A stretch of 64,000 nucleotides of DNA from a bacterium (Candidatus Blackallbacteria) CG13_big_fil_rev_8_21_14_2_50_49_14 (GTDB taxonomy: Bacteria > Cyanobacteriota > Sericytochromatia > UBA7694). How positions within the stretch are numbered: position 1 is the first letter of the stretch; every line of letters starts with the position of its first letter. The stretch spans positions 124,001-188,000 of the forward strand of contig PFGG01000064.1 of NCBI GenBank assembly GCA_002783405.1, written 5' to 3'. Made by a program: the position numbers and the translations under genes. Of the stretch, positions 7,677 through 18,652 are shown piece by piece. The notes below the pieces were generated by a model. It was not told the origin of the DNA, made no database searches, and saw nothing but the letters and a program-made list of their open reading frames with translations.

Positions 7677-8624
7677 TTACGGGATTTTAAACAAGACCCC
7701 CTGTTTAAATTGCCAAAGATGCAAAGGAGAGGCTTCTTTGGCAAATTTCATTAAAATCTCCTTGCGGGTCAGGTCAAGCGGTTCACCAATATGAATACTT
7801 TCGCTCTCATGCGGGTTTGAAACTGAGCAGGCAGAGCCCAAATGGTTTTGCAAGACTTCTGCCTGATCGAGACAGGAAAGGTATTGATTGAGATAATCCG
7901 TATCGATGGTACTGGCTTCTTGCATTTGCGGAGGGGTGGGTTGGTGCATGTAGAGGGGATGCATATGTAAACAATGGGCCATCACCCCTTGGGGGCTTTG
8001 AACATAAAAATGTGAGGGCCAATTGGTAAATTCTTCAGCGTCTAAAAAACAGGCTTGTTCATGCGGGTGAAGGGTTTTGAGGATGAGCTGTGCAAGCCGT
8101 TGGGAATCCATTTCCAGGGACAGACTCTTTCGAAAGGGTTTTGAAGCCTGATTGAAACTTTCAAAGCGAACCCGGGGGCTGGGATAAACCAATAAACGCA
8201 AACCGGCCTGAATCCGGTGCGCCAAATAGGCCAATAAACCATTCGAGAGCACCATGTCTGCCATCAAGGGCAAGACACTGCAATTTTCCTTGTGTGCGTC
8301 TTGAAAAGCCAGGGTTTGAAGAATATGGGCGTAAATGTATTTGTCTTGAAACCAAAAATTTTTGGAAGCCCAATCTTTGAGATCCTCAAGCTCAAAGATC
8401 ACCATATCCACAGCACAAAGGCTTCGGATCGCATCCAATACTTTTGAGTTTTCAATCTGCAGGGCGTCTTCTTCACTGGTGAACAGGCGTAGACGGGTTG
8501 ACTCAGAAAAAGGCCAGGACGGCAGGTTTCCCCCTGCCAAAAGGGAGGGCAATAGGAAATCCAATAAGGTCTGGCGATAAAATTCTCCCCAGACAGGCAC
8601 TACGATATGAAAATGGGAGGGCAT
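7677..8624 (-). CDS. Glycosyltransferase-like protein of unknown function
   Basis: A 315-residue protein without signal peptide. The start (FHIVVPVWGEFY, then LPSLLAGGNLP) looks like the first strand and helix of a GT-A nucleotide-sugar transferase fold. FTSEEDA and the MADMVLSNGLLAYL segment are consistent with such a fold, the latter with an Asp at the place where sugar-nucleotide enzymes carry their metal site. There is no clean DxD motif, so the donor and activity are unclear. The C-terminal half (HFYVQSPQG onward) is unlike anything I recognise. It is single on the minus strand, with a 256-base upstream region facing the pyrroline-5-carboxylate dehydrogenase gene that probably holds both promoters. 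I see nothing else in that gap. Confidence 0.55.
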   Translation of the reverse strand: MPSHFHIVVPVWGEFYRQTLLDFLLPSLLAGGNLPSWPFSESTRLRLFTSEEDALQIENSKVLDAIRSLCAVDMVIFELEDLKDWASKNFWFQDKYIYAHILQTLAFQDAHKENCSVLPLMADMVLSNGLLAYLAHRIQAGLRLLVYPSPRVRFESFNQASKPFRKSLSLEMDSQRLAQLILKTLHPHEQACFLDAEEFTNWPSHFYVQSPQGVMAHCLHMHPLYMHQPTPPQMQEASTIDTDYLNQYLSCLDQAEVLQNHLGSACSVSNPHESESIHIGEPLDLTRKEILMKFAKEASPLHLWQFKQGVLFKIP

Positions 8625-8880: not shown

Positions 8881-10440
8881 ATGCATCTCAATCTCCCTGA
8901 ATTTACAAACGAAGCTTTTACTGATTTTTCTCAAGCCGAGCATGCCCAGGCGATGGAAGCTGCTCTTCAAAAGGTGACTGCTCACTTTGAACGTGAGTAT
9001 CCGATCGTGATTGGGGCAGAAAAAATCAAAACTGAGACGAAGTTTAGTTCTTACAATCCTGCTTGTCCCAGTCAAACCATGGGAACCTTTCAAAAAGGCG
9101 ATGCTGCTTTGGCTGAGAAGGCCATTGAAACCGCTTGGGCCGCTTTTCCGGCATGGTCAAAGACGCCCGCTGAAGAGCGGGTGGCTTATCTCTTAAAGGC
9201 TTCAGAAATCGTGAAGGCCCGTAAATTTGAGATTGCTGCTGCGATGGTCTATGAGGTGGGGAAATCCTGGGCCGAAGCAGATGGTGACGTTGCTGAAGCG
9301 ATTGACTTTTTAGAGTTTTATGCCCGCGAAATGTTGCGCTATGCGGCCCCTCAGCCGATTACTCCTTATCCAGGAGAGGCCAATGAAGCCTTTTACTTGC
9401 CCTTGGGGGTGGGGGCGATCATTCCCCCTTGGAACTTCCCCTTTGCGATTTTGGTGGGCATGAGCGCTTCTGCGCTGGTTACCGGCAATACTGTGGTTTT
9501 AAAGCCTGCAGAGGAATCTATGCTGATGGGGGCGATCTTTGCTGAAATTATGGAAGAAGTTGGGCTGCCAGCAGGTGTGCTGAACTTTATTACAGGGGAT
9601 GGCGCCGAAGTGGGCGGTGTGATGGTCAATCACCCTCTGACCCGTTTTATCTCTTTTACGGGCTCAAAGGACGTGGGGCTGCTGATTACTGAACAGGCGG
9701 CAAAACGCATTCCGGGGCAACGCTGGATCAAGCGGGTGATTGCGGAACTGGGCGGAAAAGATGCCACGGTTGTGGATGAAACCGCTGATCTTGAAGCTGC
9801 GGCCAGCGGAATTGTGGCGGCTGCTTTTGGTTTTCAAGGCCAAAAATGTTCAGCCTGTTCTCGTGCCATTATTGTTGAGAGCGTCTATGAGCAGGTGCTT
9901 GAAAAAGTCGTTGAAAAAACCCAAGCACTGACCCAGGGAGACCCTGTTCAATTTGAGAATTTTATGGGGCCTGTGATTAATCAGGAATCTGAAGACAAAT
10001 GTCTGCGCTATATAGGCTATGGCCATGAAGAAGGTCGTTTGCTGGTGGGTGGGCATAAACTGGAGCGTGAAGGACATTTTATTGCGCCGACGGTCTTTGC
10101 CGATCTTGATCCCTCTTCCCGTTTGGCACAGGAAGAAGTCTTTGGGCCTGTCTTGGCCCTGATCAAAGCCCGTGATTACAAGCATGCTCTCGAAATTGCA
10201 AATGGCACGCCCTATGGTCTGACGGGTGCCTTTTACAGCCAGGTAGAAGCGCGTTTACAGGAAGCCCGTGATGATTTCTTTGTGGGGAATTTATACCTCA
10301 ATCGTAAATGCACAGGGGCCTTGGTCGGCGTGCATCCCTTTGGTGGCTTTAACCTTTCGGGCACCGACTCAAAAGCCGGTGGCCGGGATTATCTTCTGAA
10401 TTTTATGCAGGCCAAATCGGTCACGCGTAAGCTTGGATAG
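8881..10440 (+). CDS. pruA: L-glutamate gamma-semialdehyde (1-pyrroline-5-carboxylate) dehydrogenase
   Basis: A 519-residue aldehyde dehydrogenase that oxidises glutamate semialdehyde to glutamate with NAD+, the last step of proline and arginine breakdown. The match to the RocA/PruA group is strong. It has IIPPWNFPFAI in the cofactor-binding part, the general base Glu in AELGGKD and the nucleophilic Cys in FQGQKCSACSR, and the C-terminal NRKCTGALVGVHPFGG is specific to this group. I chose the ATG nine bases after GGAAGGA. Longer starts at 8848 and 8872 lack a well-placed ribosome site. No proline dehydrogenase gene is nearby, so the substrate is made elsewhere. The mechanosensitive channel gene overlaps its end, which fits a link between proline and osmotic balance (inference). 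Confidence 0.92.
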   Translation: MHLNLPEFTNEAFTDFSQAEHAQAMEAALQKVTAHFEREYPIVIGAEKIKTETKFSSYNPACPSQTMGTFQKGDAALAEKAIETAWAAFPAWSKTPAEERVAYLLKASEIVKARKFEIAAAMVYEVGKSWAEADGDVAEAIDFLEFYAREMLRYAAPQPITPYPGEANEAFYLPLGVGAIIPPWNFPFAILVGMSASALVTGNTVVLKPAEESMLMGAIFAEIMEEVGLPAGVLNFITGDGAEVGGVMVNHPLTRFISFTGSKDVGLLITEQAAKRIPGQRWIKRVIAELGGKDATVVDETADLEAAASGIVAAAFGFQGQKCSACSRAIIVESVYEQVLEKVVEKTQALTQGDPVQFENFMGPVINQESEDKCLRYIGYGHEEGRLLVGGHKLEREGHFIAPTVFADLDPSSRLAQEEVFGPVLALIKARDYKHALEIANGTPYGLTGAFYSQVEARLQEARDDFFVGNLYLNRKCTGALVGVHPFGGFNLSGTDSKAGGRDYLLNFMQAKSVTRKLG

Positions 10441-12541
10441 TGGGGGCGTGAAACGCTGGCAGTCTTGGGTTCTTTTACTGGTTTGTCTGCTTTCTTTTGC
10501 AGGGCCTGCCTTTAGCCTCGGGCCTTCGCTTCCGGGGCTTACTGGGCCTGCTGCCCAGATGCCTGAGATCAAGGTCTTTCCCAATCAATTGGTTCAGGCC
10601 GAAGCTGTCGACCCGCAGTTAAAATCCCTGTTCTATCGCAAACCCTGGACTTTTGATCAGGAGACCTTTATTGGGGTCTGGCAGGATGTTCTGCATATCC
10701 TGCCAGACCTGCAAGCTGAGTTTCAACGGCTGGAAAACCGAAATTTCAGTTCCTCTGATTATTTGAAGCTCAGTGTGTTATTGCTCGTTTTTCTGCTGCT
10801 TTTGAGTGCCCGTATTTTAGACCGCTATTTTCAGAAACGTCTTATTTCCCTGATTGATTTCATGCCCCACCATTGGCCCGAAGTATTGCGTCATTCTGCG
10901 CGATTGCTGATTGCCGTGCTCAGCCGTTCACTGATCTTTTTAACCACCCTGTTTTTAACCTATTTGGTCTGGGGCTCTTTTTCACCAGAAAGTACCTTTT
11001 TCCCAGCTTTTATTCATTTACTCTGGATTGCTGTGGTTTACCGGGTTTTACACCTGCTGTTTTATGAGCTTTTGGCCAATACCAACACCCGTTATTTTGA
11101 GGGAGAGCAAGCCGCACTCGCCCTTCGACTTTATCGGAGCATTCATTTGTTTTTGCTCTATGTGGCCCTGTTTTTATCGGGGATTGCCATTCTGGAACAT
11201 ATTGCCTACCGCGCCGATTTGATCAATTTTCTCTATTTTGTATTGTCGGGCTGTGTTTTGCTTTTCTCGGCCTATCTATTAACCAATAAGAAACAGATCT
11301 TTACCCTCCTGCCCAGTTTGAATGAGCCCTTTTATCAGCGCTTTCTGCGCTTTTTAGGCCGGTTCTATAATTGGGTGATTGGCTTTACCTTGGCCTTGGG
11401 GGTTTTGTGGGTGGTGGGCTATCACAACCTGACCCATATGTTGTTTTTACGTTCCTGGGTTCTGTTCTCGCTCTTTTTGGGAACGGTTTTACTGCACCGT
11501 TGGTTGCAGTCGTTGATTCAAGAAACCTTGCAGATGGGCTCTGAACCCTCCCAATTGGCCAAGCAATTGTCGAGGGCGCTCTGGTTGCTTGAAGCCTTGG
11601 TCTTCAGCCAGATATTCTTGATTTTGCTCGATGTACGGGAGCCTTTGCTGAATTGGTTGGGATACCCGATCATCACGATTGGCAACAGCTCTATGAGCAT
11701 GCTTTCGATCTTCAGTGGCTTTCTGACTGTTTTTGTCTTCTGGCTTACTTCAGGCCTGATCAATGCCTATCTTGAGGAGCGTCTTTTTCCTAAATTAGAC
11801 TATGATGCGGGCGTGCACCAGATGATTACCCTCAGCATTTTTTACGTTGCGATGGGTTTGGGCATTCTCATGGGCTTGAATGTGATGGGCTTTGACTTGT
11901 CTATGTTCGCCATTTTTGCGGGGGCATTGGCGTTTGGGATCGGTTTTGGTCTGCAGGGCATTGCCAAAAATTTTGCCAGTGGAATTATTCTAATTTTTAC
12001 AGGGTTGGTGAAAAAAGGCGATTATATCACCGTGGGTGAGTATACCGGCTATATTCAACAGGTAAGCTGGAAAAAGGTTCATCTGCGTACCCCTGACCAT
12101 GTCGATTTGATTGTGCCGACGGTCAGTTTGGTCGAATCCAGTATTGTGAATTGGACCTACTCAGGCAAGCAGGTGCGCGTGCATATTCCGGTGGGCGTTT
12201 CCTATGACTCAGATGTAGAAGAGGTGCGGCGCGTTCTTTTGGAGGTTGCCCTTGAGCACCCCGAGGTTTTGCCTGACCCGGCCCCCACGGTTTGGTTAAA
12301 AGCGTTTGGCGACAGTTCTTTAGATTTTGAGCTTCTGGTTTGGATCGACTATGAATGCATTATTGTTGAAAGGCTGAGGGGTGAAATCAATTTCTTAATC
12401 TGGAAGGCCTTGAAACGTCATCAAATTGAAATTCCCTTTCCGCAACGTGATTTGCATATCCGTTCGGGTTTGCCGCCTGCTCAGCCAGGGAATCTTACCC
12501 AAACTGAAGAGGATTCAATGGGCGAGACGGTTGAGCAATAA
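10433..12541 (+). CDS. MscS-family mechanosensitive ion channel
   Basis: A 702-residue inner-membrane protein. It has an N-terminal signal-like segment, a periplasmic stretch up to about residue 110, about ten hydrophobic segments, and then the MscS core. The pore helix is Gly/Ala-rich (FGIGFGLQGIAKNFASG), followed by the beta-domain GDYITVGEYTGYIQQVSW and the typical PTVSLVESSIVNWTY. It probably opens under membrane tension to release solutes after osmotic down-shock, like the large MscK/YbiO-type members with extra N-terminal helices. It overlaps the end of the dehydrogenase gene by 8 bases if it starts at the TTG. A GTG 15 bases later is equally possible. It ends 21 bases before the converging immunity-like gene. 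Confidence 0.9.
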   Translation: MDSGGVKRWQSWVLLLVCLLSFAGPAFSLGPSLPGLTGPAAQMPEIKVFPNQLVQAEAVDPQLKSLFYRKPWTFDQETFIGVWQDVLHILPDLQAEFQRLENRNFSSSDYLKLSVLLLVFLLLLSARILDRYFQKRLISLIDFMPHHWPEVLRHSARLLIAVLSRSLIFLTTLFLTYLVWGSFSPESTFFPAFIHLLWIAVVYRVLHLLFYELLANTNTRYFEGEQAALALRLYRSIHLFLLYVALFLSGIAILEHIAYRADLINFLYFVLSGCVLLFSAYLLTNKKQIFTLLPSLNEPFYQRFLRFLGRFYNWVIGFTLALGVLWVVGYHNLTHMLFLRSWVLFSLFLGTVLLHRWLQSLIQETLQMGSEPSQLAKQLSRALWLLEALVFSQIFLILLDVREPLLNWLGYPIITIGNSSMSMLSIFSGFLTVFVFWLTSGLINAYLEERLFPKLDYDAGVHQMITLSIFYVAMGLGILMGLNVMGFDLSMFAIFAGALAFGIGFGLQGIAKNFASGIILIFTGLVKKGDYITVGEYTGYIQQVSWKKVHLRTPDHVDLIVPTVSLVESSIVNWTYSGKQVRVHIPVGVSYDSDVEEVRRVLLEVALEHPEVLPDPAPTVWLKAFGDSSLDFELLVWIDYECIIVERLRGEINFLIWKALKRHQIEIPFPQRDLHIRSGLPPAQPGNLTQTEEDSMGETVEQ

Positions 12542-12562
12542 CAGATCATCTGCATTATGGCC

Positions 12563-13078
12563 TCAATCGTAAGACAGCCCAATCACCCGCTCTCCATCCC
12601 ACTTGGGTATGCAGTAAATGCCTGTAAAATGGTGCTGTTTGATACGCTCTACAAAAAGTTCTGTGACATAGACATTGCCTGGAACAGAGCGGTTCTTGAG
12701 AAAAATATGCACATCTTTGGGGCGAGTGGCTTCAACCTCGGCATAATTGGGAAACTCACTGCAATTGGGTAAAATGGCGGGTTTGACATGATAGCCCACC
12801 AATTCTCCTGTTTCCTGGTGATACAAACAGCTTGGCTGATTATGTTCAAGCGAAACCAAATCCTGAAAAGCATACATAAAAGGAATATTGAAAAAATACT
12901 CTCCTTTTATTTTTGTCTCTTTGCTTACTTGAATATCAAAGGCAGGCCCGCAAAAATGAATATACTGACTCTTTTGCTCGGCCTGTTCCTGAGTGGGTGG
13001 AACAAAGGGGCCGGGGTTAAATACAGCATAATAGATACCCCGTGCATTGTTTTTATAATCAATACTGTAGATTTTCAT
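12563..13078 (-). CDS. Imm11-like immunity protein A, cassette 1
   Basis: A 171-residue soluble protein. The C-terminal pattern (VTELFVERIKQHHFTGIYCIPKWDG) has the 'T/S-x-F, helix, L/F-x-G-x-x-F/Y, strand, W/Y-D' form shared by its three neighbours and by Imm11 (DUF1629) immunity proteins of polymorphic toxin systems. That family call is from memory of the pattern, so it is moderate. The last 13 residues (KWDGERVIGLSYD) are nearly identical to those of the gene at 15014-15535, which marks it as the A-type member. It overlaps immunity B by 4 bases (ATGA). The low GC content compared with the flanking mscS gene suggests transfer. It is predicted to neutralise the toxin encoded upstream, which is now broken. 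Confidence 0.6.
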   Translation of the reverse strand: MKIYSIDYKNNARGIYYAVFNPGPFVPPTQEQAEQKSQYIHFCGPAFDIQVSKETKIKGEYFFNIPFMYAFQDLVSLEHNQPSCLYHQETGELVGYHVKPAILPNCSEFPNYAEVEATRPKDVHIFLKNRSVPGNVYVTELFVERIKQHHFTGIYCIPKWDGERVIGLSYD

Positions 13079-13587
13079 GCCTGAGCCTCGCTGTCGTATT
13101 TCAAAACAAAATCCATGCCTTTGAGTTTGTTTTTAAGGCAAAGCTCACGAAAAGTATTGGTGACTGCGGCTCTATAAACACCTGGATCTTCTCTAAAGAA
13201 ATGAATGCCTTTTGGTAATTCTCTGTAAATACAGGCCCAATCTAAATCATCGCTAAAAGGCAAAATATTAGGAACAACCACATAAAAAAGTCGGTCTTCA
13301 AAATGCAATTCAATTACTTGTTCAGCTTGAGGCAAAATGAGTTCTTTCAAACACTCAAATGCCTTTTGGCTGAAGGTTGGTGTTGATCCTGCAATACTGG
13401 ATGAAAATTCTTTATGCTCTTTTTCCAAATTACTAGAATGAAGTAAATAAGCATAATCTCCTATTTTAAGCGGCCTGGTACGGGTTGTAGAAATATCTAA
13501 AAATTCCAAATAATATGGAGCCGAAGAATTTAATATTTTTGCATAGTAATATTTATCTGAATCACCATGTAAAGTAAAAAGCTGCAT
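13075..13587 (-). CDS. Imm11-like immunity protein B, cassette 1
   Basis: A 170-residue soluble protein homologous in layout to the other three. It has an N-terminal MQLFTLHGDSDKYYYAKIL strand region, a middle TPTFSQKAFECLKEL, then ELHFEDRLFYVVVPNILPF, and ends LKGMDFVLKYDSEAQA. The closest relative is the gene at 15532-16056, which shares FSQKAF, LDWACIYRELP-type and YDSEAQ segments. The ATG is one base after the toxin stop and its own stop overlaps immunity A, so all three would have been translated in series. No membrane segment or signal is present, as expected for a cytoplasmic antitoxin. Assignment to Imm11 (DUF1629) rests on the C-terminal pattern. Confidence 0.6.
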   Translation of the reverse strand: MQLFTLHGDSDKYYYAKILNSSAPYYLEFLDISTTRTRPLKIGDYAYLLHSSNLEKEHKEFSSSIAGSTPTFSQKAFECLKELILPQAEQVIELHFEDRLFYVVVPNILPFSDDLDWACIYRELPKGIHFFREDPGVYRAAVTNTFRELCLKNKLKGMDFVLKYDSEAQA

Positions 13588-13588
13588 T

Positions 13589-13954
13589 TTACCAGTTCAT
13601 TTCCTTGTTAATATCTTTGCATAGTTCTTTTAATTTAAGCTCTTTTTCATCTACATACCTTGGCCTTAGGGTTTTAAACTTTTGCCCCAATTGTTTTGAA
13701 ATATGCTGAGTTGTCGCTTGGGGGTGAATCCCCGGCACAGAGGCAGAAGGCACCTTAATATTGGGGTGGTTGCTCACGTTATAAAGTATTTTTGTAACAT
13801 TGACTTTGCCCCCAGAGATAAAACTTCCTAACACAATATCCTGTAAGCTCAGGCCAGGGCCAATGGGAGAGCCTGGGTTCTTGAGCACGAAGTCAATGGT
13901 TTAACCCGTAAACCGCTCAGCAAGAGTGCGGGTTCCGTTGCTCAATGTCAATAG
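13589..13954 (-). pseudogene. Orphan polymorphic-toxin C-terminal module, 5'-truncated and with in-frame stop
   Basis: On the minus strand the frame opens at about 13954 and reads LSNGTRTLAERFTG, then a TAA at 13901-13903, then TIDFVLKNPGSPIGPGL and a further 85 residues. The sister copy at 16063 has Glu (GAA) at the stop position, so a single base change broke this one. After the stop the only start is a GTG with no ribosome site. The tail shares KILYNV, SVPGIHP, LRPRYV and ELCKDIN with the sister. A short C-terminal module placed directly before two immunity genes is the arrangement of displaced toxin tips in CDI/Rhs-type loci. The toxin fold is unknown to me. No His/Asp catalytic motif is evident beyond a conserved HP. 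Confidence 0.5.
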
Positions 13955-14014
13955 TCATTGAAAAATGATCAATTTATGGCACCAAATGAAAAAATACTGC
14001 ATGACACAGCCAGT

Positions 14015-14917
14015 TTAGAGATTTTTGATCTCATTTTCGGAAAGCCCTGTGTATTTGGAAATAACTTCTGAGGTTATGCCATCGGCTTTCATTTGTTTTG
14101 CAATATTTATTTTTTCTTCTTTTTGGCCTTCGGCTTTGCCTTTGGCCTCACCTTCTTGAATGAGGCGCTTGTCTTTTTCACTAATCGCAGTTGTAAACAT
14201 TTGTCTGACCTCCAATTGATTGGTATAGATTTTCTCAAATGCCTGATAATCCGTGGAATCAATTCGCCCATCCACAGCAAGCATCTTGAACCAGTTTAAA
14301 AACAGTGAGATAGCCATTCTGTCTTCTTTTTCAAACAGTTCAAGTAATTCATGCTCTAACTGCTCTAGATTGTAATGGTTTTCAGCTAAAAACAAGGTGG
14401 AGACAATATTTTGAATTTGCAATAGAGTTTCTGCGCTGTATTCATTTTCGGCAATTTTCAGGTATTGGAACCCGATGCCATACTGACCGAGCACGTCATG
14501 ATGTTCAATCGTTTCAGCTACAGCTTCGGGGGCTGTCCATTTCGCATCGCCATTGTAGAGCATAATCGGGAAAACTGGGGGCAATTTTTCTTTAATTTGC
14601 CCTGATTTAATCAGTGAGACATATAAGCTGGTAATGTAATTGAGGATTCTCACTGAAATAAAGCGATCTACGCTGGATTGAAACTCCAAAAGTACATAGA
14701 TAAACACGTCTTGCCCATTGAGCTTGAGCTTGTAAATCAGATCACTCTCAGTTTCCCGATAGGCCTCAGAAATAAAACTGTGTTCAATGGTTTCTGCGCT
14801 GTTGAAATCCAGTTCTTTGACCCAGGGTTCATGAACGAAGGTCTCCAATAACTGACGAAAAATCGTCACATTGGAGAAAAGACGCTTGTATCCAAAATCA
14901 TGGATATGGTGAACCAT
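14015..14917 (-). CDS. Rpn-family recombination-promoting nuclease (PD-(D/E)XK, transposase_31-like)
   Basis: A 300-residue protein of the Rpn family, DNA-cutting enzymes that stimulate RecA-independent recombination. The nuclease core is visible at about residues 50-90: SEAYRETESDLIYKL supplies the Asp and the following strand VFIYVLLEFQS supplies the E-x-Q. The following RFISVRILNYI helix is typical. The C-terminal 60 residues carry a charged AKGKAEGQKEE linker and the small helix-turn-helix-like end (MKADGITSEVISKYTGLSENEI) common in this family. All key residues are present, so it is probably active. GGAG lies 11 bases upstream of the ATG. It sits between the two toxin/immunity cassettes and may have helped move or duplicate them (inference). 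Confidence 0.85.
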   Translation of the reverse strand: MVHHIHDFGYKRLFSNVTIFRQLLETFVHEPWVKELDFNSAETIEHSFISEAYRETESDLIYKLKLNGQDVFIYVLLEFQSSVDRFISVRILNYITSLYVSLIKSGQIKEKLPPVFPIMLYNGDAKWTAPEAVAETIEHHDVLGQYGIGFQYLKIAENEYSAETLLQIQNIVSTLFLAENHYNLEQLEHELLELFEKEDRMAISLFLNWFKMLAVDGRIDSTDYQAFEKIYTNQLEVRQMFTTAISEKDKRLIQEGEAKGKAEGQKEEKINIAKQMKADGITSEVISKYTGLSENEIKNL

Positions 14918-15013
14918 CTAACTGGGGGCTCCATTGGGGTGTATGCTCTTGAATCCATTATACCATTGGGGTCAAGTCGGGGTCTTCAGCTTACGGAGCC
15001 TGAGTGTTTAAGC

Positions 15014-15535
15014 TCAATCGTAAGAGAGACCAATCACCCGCTGGCCATCCCATTTGAGAATAAATCGAACGCCCTCTAAATTTTTCTCATGAACCCGTTT
15101 TACAAAAGTTTCTGTCACCAATGGAAAAGAAACATCAGGAAATTTGTGAAAGAAATGTACTTCTGCAGGTAATTCTGAAATTATTTCAGAATAAGTTGGA
15201 TATTCTTTAGAATAGTTGATTCGAGCAGCACCCACATGATACCCCATAAAAGTATCCGTTTTGGGGTCAAACAGTGTAAAAATCTCGTGGTAATTTAAAG
15301 GCAGCAAGTCTTGTAAAACATGAAATGCCCGAGCAGAGAAAAAGTTTTCACTGCGTACTTTTTCTTGTGGGTTTTCGTGATAATATTGGTAAAAATCTTC
15401 AGAAAAATTAAAGTCAAAAGACAGTTTTGGAGCTGAATTCAGGTAGTATTCAGGTTCTACGAAGGGTTTTGCCTGAAGAATGCGCATATATACGCCTGCC
15501 CCATGCCGAAATGCCAGTGGAATATACAGTTTCAT
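15014..15535 (-). CDS. Imm11-like immunity protein A, cassette 2
   Basis: A 173-residue soluble protein, paralogue of the gene at 12563-13078. Both have FxPFVxP near residue 23, FHVLQDLLPL / MYAFQDLVSL in the middle, GYHV, a V/IHFFHKFPDV-like strand, and the almost identical end KWDGxRVIGLSYD. The DNA of the last 50 bases is also close, which shows that the cassettes descend from one ancestor. The C-terminal VTETFVKRVHEKNLEGVRFIL fits the Imm11 (DUF1629) pattern. It overlaps the B-type gene by 4 bases. It is AT-rich like the rest of the island. About 100 non-coding bases separate it from the start of the Rpn nuclease gene. Confidence 0.6.
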   Translation of the reverse strand: MKLYIPLAFRHGAGVYMRILQAKPFVEPEYYLNSAPKLSFDFNFSEDFYQYYHENPQEKVRSENFFSARAFHVLQDLLPLNYHEIFTLFDPKTDTFMGYHVGAARINYSKEYPTYSEIISELPAEVHFFHKFPDVSFPLVTETFVKRVHEKNLEGVRFILKWDGQRVIGLSYD

Positions 15536-16056
15536 GTCTGTGCCTCACTGTCGTATCTCAATCTAAATGCTATACTTTTTAGTTTGTTTTTTTCACAAGT
15601 TTTTTTAAACTCTTCGGTTACAACTGCTCCATAAGCGTAAATTGAATAATTGAAAAAATAAGCATCTTCTGGTAACTCCTGAACCATTGAGTTCCAGTCA
15701 TCGTTTTTATTTGAAAATGAGAGCAACGTAGGCTTCACAGCATAAAAAATGTGGTTTTCAAAATATATTTTTGTTATTTTTTCAGGTTCAGGAAGAAAAA
15801 AGCCTTGCAAACAATCAAAGGCTTTTTGGCTGAAAATAGGTGTAAAAGCGTTTAAATCGTCTATTCCAGGAATAATTTCAAATTGACCGTTTACAATTTT
15901 TACAGGAGTCTTCACAATTGAAATAAAATCTCCGATAGGTTTTAACCTTGAGGTATGTGAAGATTCATAAGTAAACTCGATCTGAAAGGGCTCTCGTTTA
16001 TTGAGCAGAATTGCATAAGCATATTTATTTTTTCCAAGTAAATCATACAATTTCAA
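15532..16056 (-). CDS. Imm11-like immunity protein B, cassette 2
   Basis: A 174-residue soluble protein, B-type paralogue of the gene at 13075-13587. Shared points are MKLYDLLGKNKYAYAILLN against MQLFTLHGDSDKYYYAKIL, FTPIFSQKAFDCLQG, KIYFENHIFYAVKPTLLSF, and the end FRLRYDSEAQT. Similarity to the A-type proteins is weaker and mainly C-terminal, so the A/B split came before the cassette duplication. It starts six bases after the stop of the toxin module and overlaps immunity A (ATGA). The frame is intact, with no stop or frameshift, in contrast to the toxin modules. It is predicted to be a cytoplasmic immunity protein of the Imm11 kind. Confidence 0.6.
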   Translation of the reverse strand: MKLYDLLGKNKYAYAILLNKREPFQIEFTYESSHTSRLKPIGDFISIVKTPVKIVNGQFEIIPGIDDLNAFTPIFSQKAFDCLQGFFLPEPEKITKIYFENHIFYAVKPTLLSFSNKNDDWNSMVQELPEDAYFFNYSIYAYGAVVTEEFKKTCEKNKLKSIAFRLRYDSEAQT

Positions 16057-16062
16057 TTCTAA

Positions 16063-16497
16063 CTACCAACCCATTGTATTATTGATTTCTTTACAGAGTT
16101 CTTTTAAATTTAACCTCTCATGTGTAACATATTTAGGCCGAAGAGCTTGAATTTGAGAACTCATTCCTGGTTTTATTACATTTGCATAAGCTTCTGGATG
16201 AATCCCCGGAATAGAAGCTGTTGGAACAGCTTTATAGTGACGACCCACATTGTAAAACATTTTGGATAAACTCACTTTACCTTGCCAATTTGAAACAACT
16301 TTTCCCCCTAAATCTTTAAACAATACAGGCCCACTGCCAGACCAGCCAAAAATATCCATGCGAATTATGTCTTGTAAACCCAGGCCAGGGCCAATGGGAG
16401 AGCCTGGGTTCTTGAGCACAAACTCAATAGTTTCACCCGTAAACCGCCCTGTAATGCTTCTGCAAAAGAACACATTGAGCAGGGTGTTGAAATTCAA
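16063..16497 (-). pseudogene. Orphan polymorphic-toxin C-terminal module, 5'-truncated
   Basis: A 144-residue frame whose last 118 residues are homologous to the module at 13589-13954: RFTGETIEFVLKNPGSP, GLQDI, YNVGRH, ASIPGIHP, LRPKYV and LNLKELCKEINNTMGW. Compared with the sister it holds about 20 extra residues (around WSGSGPVLFKDLGG), so the two differ in the middle. The frame has no stop but also no credible start: the first possible TTG lies at the edge of the neighbouring gene's terminator, and no ribosome site is seen before any internal GTG. I read it as the surviving tip of a longer toxin whose delivery region has been lost. It may be silent, or expressed only after recombination onto a full-length toxin gene. 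The biochemical activity is unknown. Confidence 0.5.
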
Positions 16498-16524
16498 AAA
16501 AAATCCCGCTTTTGGCGGGATTTT
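16498..16524 (-). terminator. Intrinsic terminator of the Gly/Pro-tailed protein gene
   Basis: On the minus strand a GC-rich stem (ATCCCGC paired with GCGGGAT, extended by four A-T pairs, loop of five) is followed by a run of eight T. It lies 12 bases after the stop of the gene at 16536-16937 and directly before the toxin fragment, so that fragment would receive little read-through. Confidence 0.85.
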
Positions 16525-16535
16525 TATGTCTATAC

Positions 16536-16937
16536 TTAGCGTCCAGGCGGACGGGGAGGGGGGCCACCAGGCGGCGGGCCAGGCGGACGGCCAGGAGGAG
16601 GACCTCCAGGACCACCAGGCGGGGGGCCGGGGGGGCGACCAGGAGGCGGGCCTCCGGGAGGGCCAGAACGACCCAGTGAAGCTTCAACTGACTCAATGGT
16701 CTTGAGCAGCGCTTCAGCAACTTCTTTACCCAAAGAATAGGGAATCGCAATACGGGTATGTACTGGAACACATTCCTTCTGCAGGGTTTCGACTTCTTCC
16801 TGCATGATAGGGGGTAAATAGCCAAAATCAATCACGACGTTTTCCCGATCGACACGAAAGCGGAACAAGTTGGCCGGTTGACTCAGTGTATCGAGGTCAC
16901 GGGCCAGGAGATCGTCGGGGGACAAGGGTTGTACCAT
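16536..16937 (-). CDS. DUF3467-like protein with Gly/Pro/Arg repeat tail
   Basis: A 133-residue protein. Residues 15-90 resemble DUF3467: NLFRFRVDRENVVIDFGYLPP, then VHTRIAIPYSLGKEVAEALLKTIE. Small proteins of this type are found in many bacteria and some phages without a firm function. The last 42 residues are purely Gly, Pro and Arg in tandem units such as GGPPPGRPPGPPP, encoded by a C/G-biased imperfect repeat. The tail is unusual for the family and could mediate binding or phase separation, which is speculation. GGAG lies nine bases before the ATG, and a textbook terminator follows the stop. No partner gene is obvious. Confidence 0.65.
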   Translation of the reverse strand: MVQPLSPDDLLARDLDTLSQPANLFRFRVDRENVVIDFGYLPPIMQEEVETLQKECVPVHTRIAIPYSLGKEVAEALLKTIESVEASLGRSGPPGGPPPGRPPGPPPGGPGGPPPGRPPGPPPGGPPPRPPGR

Positions 16938-17140
16938 GCTGGATGTCTCCTACGTTTCTTTCTAGCTTTGAAACATGCTACCACAGAATTCGGTCATTTT
17001 CAAAGGATGCTTGTCACCAATCCTGAATTGCTTTGCTCCAGCAGAAAAAATCAACTCAAGAATTCAGGGGCGGAGAGGTGCAAAACTCGACGCCAGCGGA
17101 TATTATAGAGTTAAATGAATCGCCCTTGAAAGAGCCATCG

Positions 17141-18652
17141 ATGCGTATTATTCAAACCACAGATTACCAGGAAATGAGCCGTACAGCGGCTTTGTTGATC
17201 CTCAATTTATTGCTTGAGAACCCACAGGCTGTGATTGGTCTGGCAACCGGGCATACCCCAAGCGGGCTTTATCGGGAATGGGTTTTGGCAAGGTACAGCC
17301 TGGGCATTGCTATGAATGGCCTGCATTTCTGTCATTTGGATGAATACCTGGGCATGGACAGTCAAAATCCTGAATCGATGGCTGCCATTTTGCGGCAACA
17401 GTTGTTTCAGCCTTTGGGGATCAATGCCGATCGGGTTCACTATATGCCTGCTGCTGACCCCGATCCTGAGCAGGCCTGCCAGGTCTATGAAAAATTGATT
17501 CAGGAATTGGGTGGATTGGATTTGCAGATTCTGGGGATTGGCCAGAATGGCCATATCGCATTTAATGAACCTGGAACATCTTTTAATCAACACACCCATA
17601 TCACGCCCCTAAGTGTTTCAACGCGTAAGGCCAATGCCCGTTATTTTGCATCGGGAGAAACCCCTGAACAGGCCATGACCATGGGCCCTTCTTCAATTAT
17701 GGGGGCCAAACGGATTTTGCTCTTGGCTTCTGGTTCAAACAAGGCCAATGCGGTTCAGAATATGTTGGAGGGGCCTCTGGATGAAAACTGCCCTGCCAGC
17801 TTGTTGCGTTTTCACCCCCACGCCACGCTGGTGCTGGATCGCGAAGCGGCAGCCAAGCTTTCGCCGGTGACCTTGCATCCAGCGGATTATAACCAACCTG
17901 CACCTCTCAGTGTTTATAAGCATTCTGAGAAGTTTTTTAACTCGCCCCAACGTATTTTGGTCTGCGCTCCCCATCCCGATGACGCCTCAATCAGCTGCGG
18001 TGGTACACTGGCCCGTTTAAAAGAAGAAGGCCATGAACTGCTCTTTGTATCGATGACCACCGGGCACCGCGCGGATATTCCCGATACCAGCCGTGAAGAG
18101 CGGATTGTTCTGCGCCAAAGAGAGGCTGAAAAGGAAGCTGCCTGCTTCGATAGCCAGGCCTTGGGCTTGGAGCTTGATTTTTACGAGCGATCCTACTGCC
18201 CTTCTTCTGCCGATGTCACCCGTATCCGTTCAGTTCTTTCAAGCTTTAAACCGGCGCTGGTTTTTTCTGCCTCAGCGGAAGACCGCCATCCCGCCCACCG
18301 CATGTCTGCACTTTTGCTCAAAGAGGCCTTGCAACAACATGTGCAGGCCTTGGGTACAACCATTCAACTCTGGGCCTATGAGGGGCCGTGGTTCCTCTTT
18401 GCCCGTGATGATTTTAATACTGTGGTTGAGCTTGACGACCGCCATCTGCAGCTTAAACTGGCCGGCATTCAGGCCCATCGTTCTCAAATTGAGCGCAAAC
18501 GCTATGATCAGGCGGCAGAAGCGCTTTCCCGTTTCCGTGCGATTACCACACCGGAGTCAAGGCTTTCAAGCTTTGGCTCTGAAGTTCAGAATTTGGGTGA
18601 GACGATTGAAGTTTTTCAAAGGTTTGAATTGAGGCCCAGGCTTGCCACCTGA
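17141..18652 (+). CDS. nagB: Glucosamine-6-phosphate deaminase fused to a PIG-L/LmbE deacetylase domain
   Basis: A 503-residue two-domain cytoplasmic enzyme. Residues 1-240 are NagB, which converts glucosamine-6-phosphate to fructose-6-phosphate and ammonia. It has ATGHTPSGLY (phosphate loop), LDEYLG at 66-71 and GIGQNGHIAFNEPG at 132-145 with the ring-opening His and Glu; the Asn form of this motif is the Bacillus type. Residues 270-500 are a PIG-L/LmbE zinc deacetylase, with APHPDDASISCGG at 276-288 and a later H-P-A-H. PIG-L enzymes remove acetyl groups from GlcNAc compounds, so the fusion could deacetylate and then deaminate one amino sugar. Similar fusions occur in Bacteroidetes. The ATG chosen matches the family start. 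A longer frame from 17033 has no support. Confidence 0.88.
   Translation: MRIIQTTDYQEMSRTAALLILNLLLENPQAVIGLATGHTPSGLYREWVLARYSLGIAMNGLHFCHLDEYLGMDSQNPESMAAILRQQLFQPLGINADRVHYMPAADPDPEQACQVYEKLIQELGGLDLQILGIGQNGHIAFNEPGTSFNQHTHITPLSVSTRKANARYFASGETPEQAMTMGPSSIMGAKRILLLASGSNKANAVQNMLEGPLDENCPASLLRFHPHATLVLDREAAAKLSPVTLHPADYNQPAPLSVYKHSEKFFNSPQRILVCAPHPDDASISCGGTLARLKEEGHELLFVSMTTGHRADIPDTSREERIVLRQREAEKEAACFDSQALGLELDFYERSYCPSSADVTRIRSVLSSFKPALVFSASAEDRHPAHRMSALLLKEALQQHVQALGTTIQLWAYEGPWFLFARDDFNTVVELDDRHLQLKLAGIQAHRSQIERKRYDQAAEALSRFRAITTPESRLSSFGSEVQNLGETIEVFQRFELRPRLAT

Follow-up and report, generated by a model that had tools for sequence, protein, structure and literature searches.

A putative orphan immunity island formed by two polymorphic-toxin operon ends in a genome of the Sericytochromatia

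Why would a bacterium keep two sets of immunity-like genes next to toxin genes that have lost their beginnings? This question is raised by an AT-rich island at positions 12563-16497 of a 64,000-nucleotide stretch of contig PFGG01000064.1 from Candidatus Blackallbacteria (G000:C64:124001-188000, here called the window). The genome (G000) has a size of 5.65 Mb, and its assembly is ~96% complete. The nearest relative compared was G016 (Ca. Sericytochromatia MAG_89), which belongs to the same genus; G007 represents another genus of the same family. The answer that we favour, and hold to be probable, is an acquired orphan immunity island against lipoprotein-borne nucleases, made up of two 3'-ends of polymorphic-toxin operons, each of independent origin. 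Each end would comprise the post-catalytic tail of a nuclease toxin and two co-translated paralogous Imm11-like proteins, ImmB and ImmA. Both ends, and the gene of an Rpn-family nuclease with them, would have entered between two housekeeping genes.

Two direct cassettes are located on the minus strand of the island, each in the order toxin fragment, ImmB and ImmA. Six DNA repeat families span the fragment, ImmB and ImmA at a near-constant offset of 2.45-2.53 kb; these repeats and the protein identities between the copies (54% for the fragments, 40% for ImmB and 37% for ImmA) place the pairing of the copies beyond chance. The GC content is 0.387 in the island and 0.488 in the window. In both copies the ImmB gene starts 1-6 nt past the stop codon of the toxin fragment. 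All four immunity genes are intact, and neither toxin fragment has a plausible start. The coordinates, repeats and GC content agree with a preliminary description of this DNA, which had reported two same-strand copies of this arrangement with intact immunity genes and startless toxins in an AT-rich stretch.

A full-length relative of the fragments is present in G016 at the locus G016:C56 (L033:2838-7364), where an open reading frame (ORF) of 1508 aa encoding a predicted lipoprotein is followed by ImmB and ImmA. The N-terminus of this protein contains a signal sequence and the lipobox LNAC, as read by eye. Residues 1290-1341 form an HNH_2-like region (20.2 bits against the Pfam cut-off of 21; E=0.00056 for the domain alone), and the motifs AHHIIP and HPWFHH were recognised by eye in this nuclease-like region. 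The toxin gene is joined to ImmB by an ATGA overlap, and ImmB and ImmA also overlap. The C-terminal segment reads GKVEINRILYN...RLEELCDLINKYLNR in the G016 protein and GKVNVTKILYN...LKLKELCKDINKEMNW in the window fragments. Pairwise BLASTP of the G016 tail with a window fragment gave E=1e-4. When a profile of the fragments was searched against 18 whole genomes, the same tail was the best non-member match (E=0.09), reaching the C-terminus of the protein; its score was 19.2 bits, which was reached by 0 of 5000 shuffles of the segment (maximum 9.7). The BLASTP match, the profile, the shuffles and the position directly before ImmB support homology of the window fragments to the tail of the G016 toxin.

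In the alignment the fragments cover the C-terminus of the G016 protein, and everything upstream is missing in the window. Since the shared piece is the tail past the nuclease-like domain, the window fragments are best read as post-catalytic tails; they are probably not the toxic part, and the nuclease and delivery parts would be the missing ones. The columns common to all four tails (G, V, LYN and L..LC..IN) are without the His/Asp set of a nuclease, and no nuclease motif was recognised in the window fragments. The preliminary description had regarded the fragments as toxin domains with a link to secreted toxins. The first proposal is not supported, as the shared piece follows the nuclease-like domain in the full-length relative; the second is supported by the complete toxin with a homologous tail beside an ImmB-ImmA pair, the kind of arrangement that the preliminary description had named as a check.

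The G016 protein also bears on the idea that each cassette is a free-standing toxin-antitoxin-like module of the chromosome, with the short tail protein as an intracellular toxin and ImmB and ImmA as the antitoxins. The tight order of three genes for small proteins would suit such a module, as would another copy of the tail, at G016:C19, which is in frame with a DUF2281 antitoxin-like start. However, at G016:C56 the tail forms the C-terminal end of a predicted lipoprotein of 1508 aa, it has no convincing start in either window copy, and it matched nothing in PADLOC, Pfam or NCBIfam; we consider this idea very unlikely. At G016:C19 (L010:9082-9606), the frame runs from the DUF2281 part to the tail through a junk stretch; apparently, the two were fused by chance at the point of truncation.

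ImmA and ImmB are paralogous (E=9e-10). Profile comparison of ImmB with four aligned Imm11 proteins, one of G000 and three of other genomes in the phylum, gave 93.3% and E=2.7e-7 over about 95 C-terminal residues. Twelve ImmA and ImmB proteins taken together gave 93.6%, and an unrelated control profile 0.2%. The cut-off of the Pfam model Imm11 (PF07791), 22.1 bits, was not reached: copy 2 ImmB scored best with 12.8 bits, the other immunity proteins of the window were unmatched, and a match at E<1 was obtained for one of the twelve family members. By these comparisons, ImmA and ImmB are an Imm11-related pair which is not filed under Imm11 itself. The earlier label of Imm11-like immunity thus stands for ImmB; whereas the direct match of ImmA is weak (7%), and its relation to Imm11 comes by way of its homology to ImmB.

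Comparison of the immunity genes showed that the proportion of nonsynonymous differences (pN, 0.26-0.47) is well below the near-saturated proportion of synonymous differences (pS, 0.62-0.77) in every pair. This purifying selection is consistent with a retained function, and part of it may predate the loss of the toxin. A profile of six ImmA and ImmB proteins revealed more ImmB-ImmA genes at G016:C56 (E down to 4e-20) and in the genome G035, where an orphan pair lies beside transposase-like ORFs. In GTDB contigs, the ImmB query retrieved the G016 cassette only (JADMKE010000036.1, Candidatus Sericytochromatia bacterium MAG_89). Alternatively, the island might be neutral debris, that is, broken ends of toxin operons brought by a mobile element and decaying without immunity function. 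The tails without convincing start, the stop codon in copy 2, the position just downstream of a terminator and the low GC content could all be explained in this way; but four full-length immunity ORFs with overlapping starts and stops, the low pN, and an ImmB-ImmA pair kept at six places in three genomes speak against it, and we regard debris as quite unlikely. Fragments without an upstream toxin beside intact immunity ORFs agree better with retained immunity after loss of the delivery half, as had been proposed at the outset.

The surrounding genes suggest how the cassettes arrived. In G016 (L060) and G007 (L058), genes for an aldehyde dehydrogenase, an MscS-family channel and a DUF3467-like protein follow one another in this order; the MscS gene adjoins the DUF3467-like gene, and the island is absent. 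With this site empty in both relatives, the best reading is that the island was inserted in the window lineage, next to the DUF3467-like terminator (Table 1). The third cassette is located at another locus, G016:C19, and the ImmB and ImmA of copy 2 are more similar to its products than to those of copy 1. A recent local tandem duplication was therefore rejected, the copies also being too divergent, and the word 'duplicated' in the preliminary description does not fit; two cassettes were probably brought together.

Table 1. Features of the island and its flanks (window positions)
Feature	Position	Strand	Remarks
Inserted island, about 3.95 kb	12545..16498	.	Between the MscS stop and the conserved terminator following the DUF3467-like gene
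Copy 1 toxin tail fragment	16063..16497	-	Sole start TTG, directly past the terminator; open frame extends to 16683
Copy 1 entry sequence RFTGETIEFVLKNPGSPIGPGLGLQ	16370..16447	-	
Copy 1 ImmB, 174 aa, Imm11-like	15532..16056	-	
Copy 1 ImmA, 173 aa	15014..15535	-	Start overlaps ImmB stop (ATGA)
Copy 2 toxin tail fragment	13589..13888	-	First possible start GTG; frame open to 13900; homologous to the C-terminal tail at G016:C56
Copy 2 entry sequence	13839..13916	-	In-frame TAA at 13901-13903
Copy 2 ImmB, 170 aa, Imm11-like	13075..13587	-	58% identity to the G016:C19 homologue
Copy 2 ImmA, 171 aa	12563..13078	-	ATGA overlap with ImmB stop; 60% identity to the G016:C19 homologue
Rpn-family recombination-promoting nuclease / Transposase_31 (PD-(D/E)XK), 300 aa	14015..14917	-	Between the cassettes; Pfam PF04754 E=2.5e-25, NCBIfam TIGR01784 E=3.7e-19
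MscS-family mechanosensitive channel, left flank	10433..12541	+	In both G016 and G007 its orthologue adjoins the DUF3467-like gene
Intrinsic terminator of the upstream DUF3467-like gene, island right edge	16499..16525	-	Hairpins of relatives at the same place
DUF3467-like gene, Pro/Gly-rich C-terminus, right flank	16536..16937	-	Weak PF11950 match, E=0.0041

The Rpn-family gene between the copies had not been mentioned in the preliminary description. Rpn-like genes adjoin three of the cassette loci (the window, L012:6269-7267 and L033:13746-14654), which may be due to chance. The N-terminal 67 aa of the DUF3467-like protein are 99-100% identical in G016, G007 and G035, across genera of the family, but towards the C-terminus the protein changes fast and consists of a Pro/Gly-rich repeat whose unit is 12 nt long. 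Further along the window, a single ORF (17033-18652) encodes a glucosamine-6-phosphate deaminase-like part followed by an LmbE/PIG-L-like deacetylase part, as assigned by eye.

The entry sequence (RFTG/FVLKNPGSPIGPG) at the front of the fragments is identical at 71 of 78 nt between the copies, and the DNA homology between them begins there. In the fragments pS is 0.375 over the first 34 codons and 0.76 over the later, synonymously saturated codons. A near-unchanged entry amid saturated silent sites suggests exchange or conversion at this junction. By analogy with the orphan cdiA-CT/cdiI and rhs-CT/rhsI modules, the cassettes might be a silent reservoir, in which the unit of entry, tail, ImmB and ImmA would be brought into a full-length toxin gene by recombination through the entry and so arm that gene, the tail (or the tail and the entry) being the exchangeable tip. 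The common starting point of homology in both copies would also be explained. Recombination is visible at the G016:C56 locus: between its two sets, the second half of ImmA and the downstream DNA are 92-98% identical and the first half of ImmA is not, so that the second copy keeps only this part of ImmA and the DNA behind it at such similarity. The gene order at this locus (L033:2838-13548) is HNH toxin, ImmB, ImmA, a small lipoprotein, a HigA-like gene, an ankyrin-repeat gene and the second set, which consists of ImmB, ImmA, a lipoprotein and a HigA-like gene.

Against a reservoir, the search for full-length proteins with the RFTG/FVLKNPGSPIGPG entry, which the preliminary description had suggested, found none in G000 or six relatives, and the entry is also absent from the G016:C56 toxin; thus no gene is visible with which the cassettes could recombine at present. 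Within the ~96% complete G000 assembly, neither the entry nor a backbone related to the G016 toxin occurs elsewhere. Moreover, a stop codon lies inside the copy 2 entry, and the proposed tip follows the nuclease in the full-length relative and has no invariant His/Asp set. A reservoir is in our view unlikely.

Other candidate relatives of the tail and the entry were rejected. A profile match of the tail to the adiponectin C1q domain in PDB (E=3.7e-8) was summed from three stretches in a 442-residue chain; no single-domain entry did better than E=0.3, and the matching stretch is not kept in the full-length relative. An Rhs origin of the entry (YVxNxP...DPxGL-like) was dismissed, since the extended fragment had no match among the Rhs models and G000 lacks an Rhs core. 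Weak matches to the entry at L014, L016 and L017 are in non-gene frames, opposite or across ordinary genes. Two matches from the phylum were also discarded: L008 is antisense to an intact fructose-bisphosphatase-like gene and contains three stops, and L009 contains two stops (E=0.009). Searches of plasmids, IMG/VR, GTDB contigs (with the tail as query), PADLOC, PHROGs and Rfam gave no matches. The AlphaFold2 models of the tail and ImmB, based on alignments of three rows, reached pLDDT values of 41 and 39, too low for interpretation.

The orphan immunity reading draws further support from other loci, namely the third cassette at G016:C19, the orphan pair of G035, and a second orphan cassette in G000 itself. 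The latter is located at about 33.2-34.4 kb of G000:C21, where an AHH fragment (L012:7171-7719; PF14412, E=2.8e-6) overlaps an Imm11 gene (7716-8360; PF07791, E=7.2e-7); it has no delivery part and adjoins an Rpn-like gene. AHH occurs in one of 18 genomes of the class, and Imm11 in four of 386 of the phylum. The ancestral operon would most likely have encoded a long surface protein or lipoprotein toxin with an HNH/AHH-type nuclease domain and a tail, followed by ImmB and ImmA. A neighbouring cell would deliver a large lipoprotein-type nuclease toxin with such a terminal tail, and ImmB and/or ImmA, if expressed, would bind and block the incoming nuclease in the cytoplasm of the recipient. The orphan cassette could in this way give protection to a cell that does not make the toxin. 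The tail fragment would persist as the 3' end of the toxin gene abutting ImmB, and read-through from it perhaps helps the translation of ImmB.

Several points weigh against this interpretation. The match to the G016:C56 tail is weak by sequence alone and leans on synteny, and the HNH domain of that protein is slightly under its Pfam cut-off. ImmA is linked to Imm11 through ImmB. The layout of the cassettes, their relation to a full-length toxin, the empty site and the kinship of ImmB with Imm11 are read from the sequences themselves, whereas expression, nuclease activity, delivery, binding and protection are inferred from homology. In addition, a single full-length relative was found, and it has no RFTG entry; a catalytic domain of another kind could therefore have preceded the entry in the window toxin.

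Comparable leftovers are known from other bacteria. Displaced toxin/immunity ends have been described in contact-dependent inhibition (CDI)/Rhs loci, in tandem with transposase genes, and were read as retained immunity or as a silent repository (PMC4927057). The window cassettes are similar to these orphan cdiA-CT/cdiI and rhs-CT/rhsI modules (PMC4927057, PMC3967940) in consisting of toxin-operon 3' ends that are displaced and have their immunity genes intact, in their tandem arrangement with transposase-type genes in between, and in the conserved sequence kept upstream of a divergent end. As is typical of an orphan CT/immunity module, a 3' toxin fragment without the N-terminal delivery part is followed directly by an intact immunity gene; homology of the fragment to a full-length toxin gene of the same genome, a common though not universal trait, is not seen here. 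They also differ in that they are not beside a full-length toxin gene, G000 has no Rhs core (CdiA was not searched for), each cassette has two paralogous immunity genes, and the retained part is probably a post-catalytic tail instead of the toxic domain.

The closest parallel to the proposed toxin might be the SitA5 lipoproteins of Myxococcus, which carry AHH or HNH (PF13391) nucleases (PMC8546572). Eight ahh-imm11 loci are present in one Myxococcus strain, and some toxin loci have extra imm11 genes (PMC12077181). SitA5 (PMC12077181, PMC8546572, PMC5562445) and the G016 operon would share a lipoprotein N-terminus (predicted for G016), an AHH/HNH_2-type nuclease near the C-terminus (putative in G016) and Imm11-related immunity downstream, sometimes with extra imm11 genes; whereas the full-length relative comes from G016 and not from the window, and it has an extra C-terminal tail past the nuclease. 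Imm11 is known to pair with AHH, HNH and SHH toxins and to form homogeneous polyimmunity loci (PMC3482391). The C-terminal residues of ImmB align with Imm11 (PF07791, DUF1629) as given above; however, the score under the Pfam cut-off, the different N-terminal half and the recurrent ImmB-ImmA pair set the family apart. The tandem paralogous immunity genes in one orientation with short gaps are also reminiscent of polyimmunity loci, for which Imm11 is among the named families; but such loci are said to be free of toxin interruption (PMC3482391), whereas a tail fragment precedes each ImmB in the window.

Taken as a whole, the island appears to be another case of a known leftover of bacterial warfare, which would differ by its post-nuclease tail, its recurrent ImmB-ImmA pair and the absence of a full-length partner in G000. 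It probably protects the cell from neighbours with the complete toxin. With these findings the Sericytochromatia, a non-photosynthetic class related to the cyanobacteria, would join the groups that have operons for lipoprotein-type nuclease toxins and their immunity. They also provide a case of orphan immunity that can be traced through a full-length relative, an empty site and orphan cassettes at several loci. The case is relevant to Myxococcus as well, for which the presence of extra imm11 genes at some toxin loci was left unexplained (PMC12077181). The post-nuclease tail is a concrete candidate target for one of the two immunity proteins. One might go further and suppose that the tail common to the four proteins is a new post-nuclease domain, on which two distinct Imm11-type proteins, translated together, dock as a pair; the tail and the pair would then be kept as a selected mobile immunity cassette with the entry as its exchange junction, a proposal that we put forward as rather improbable.

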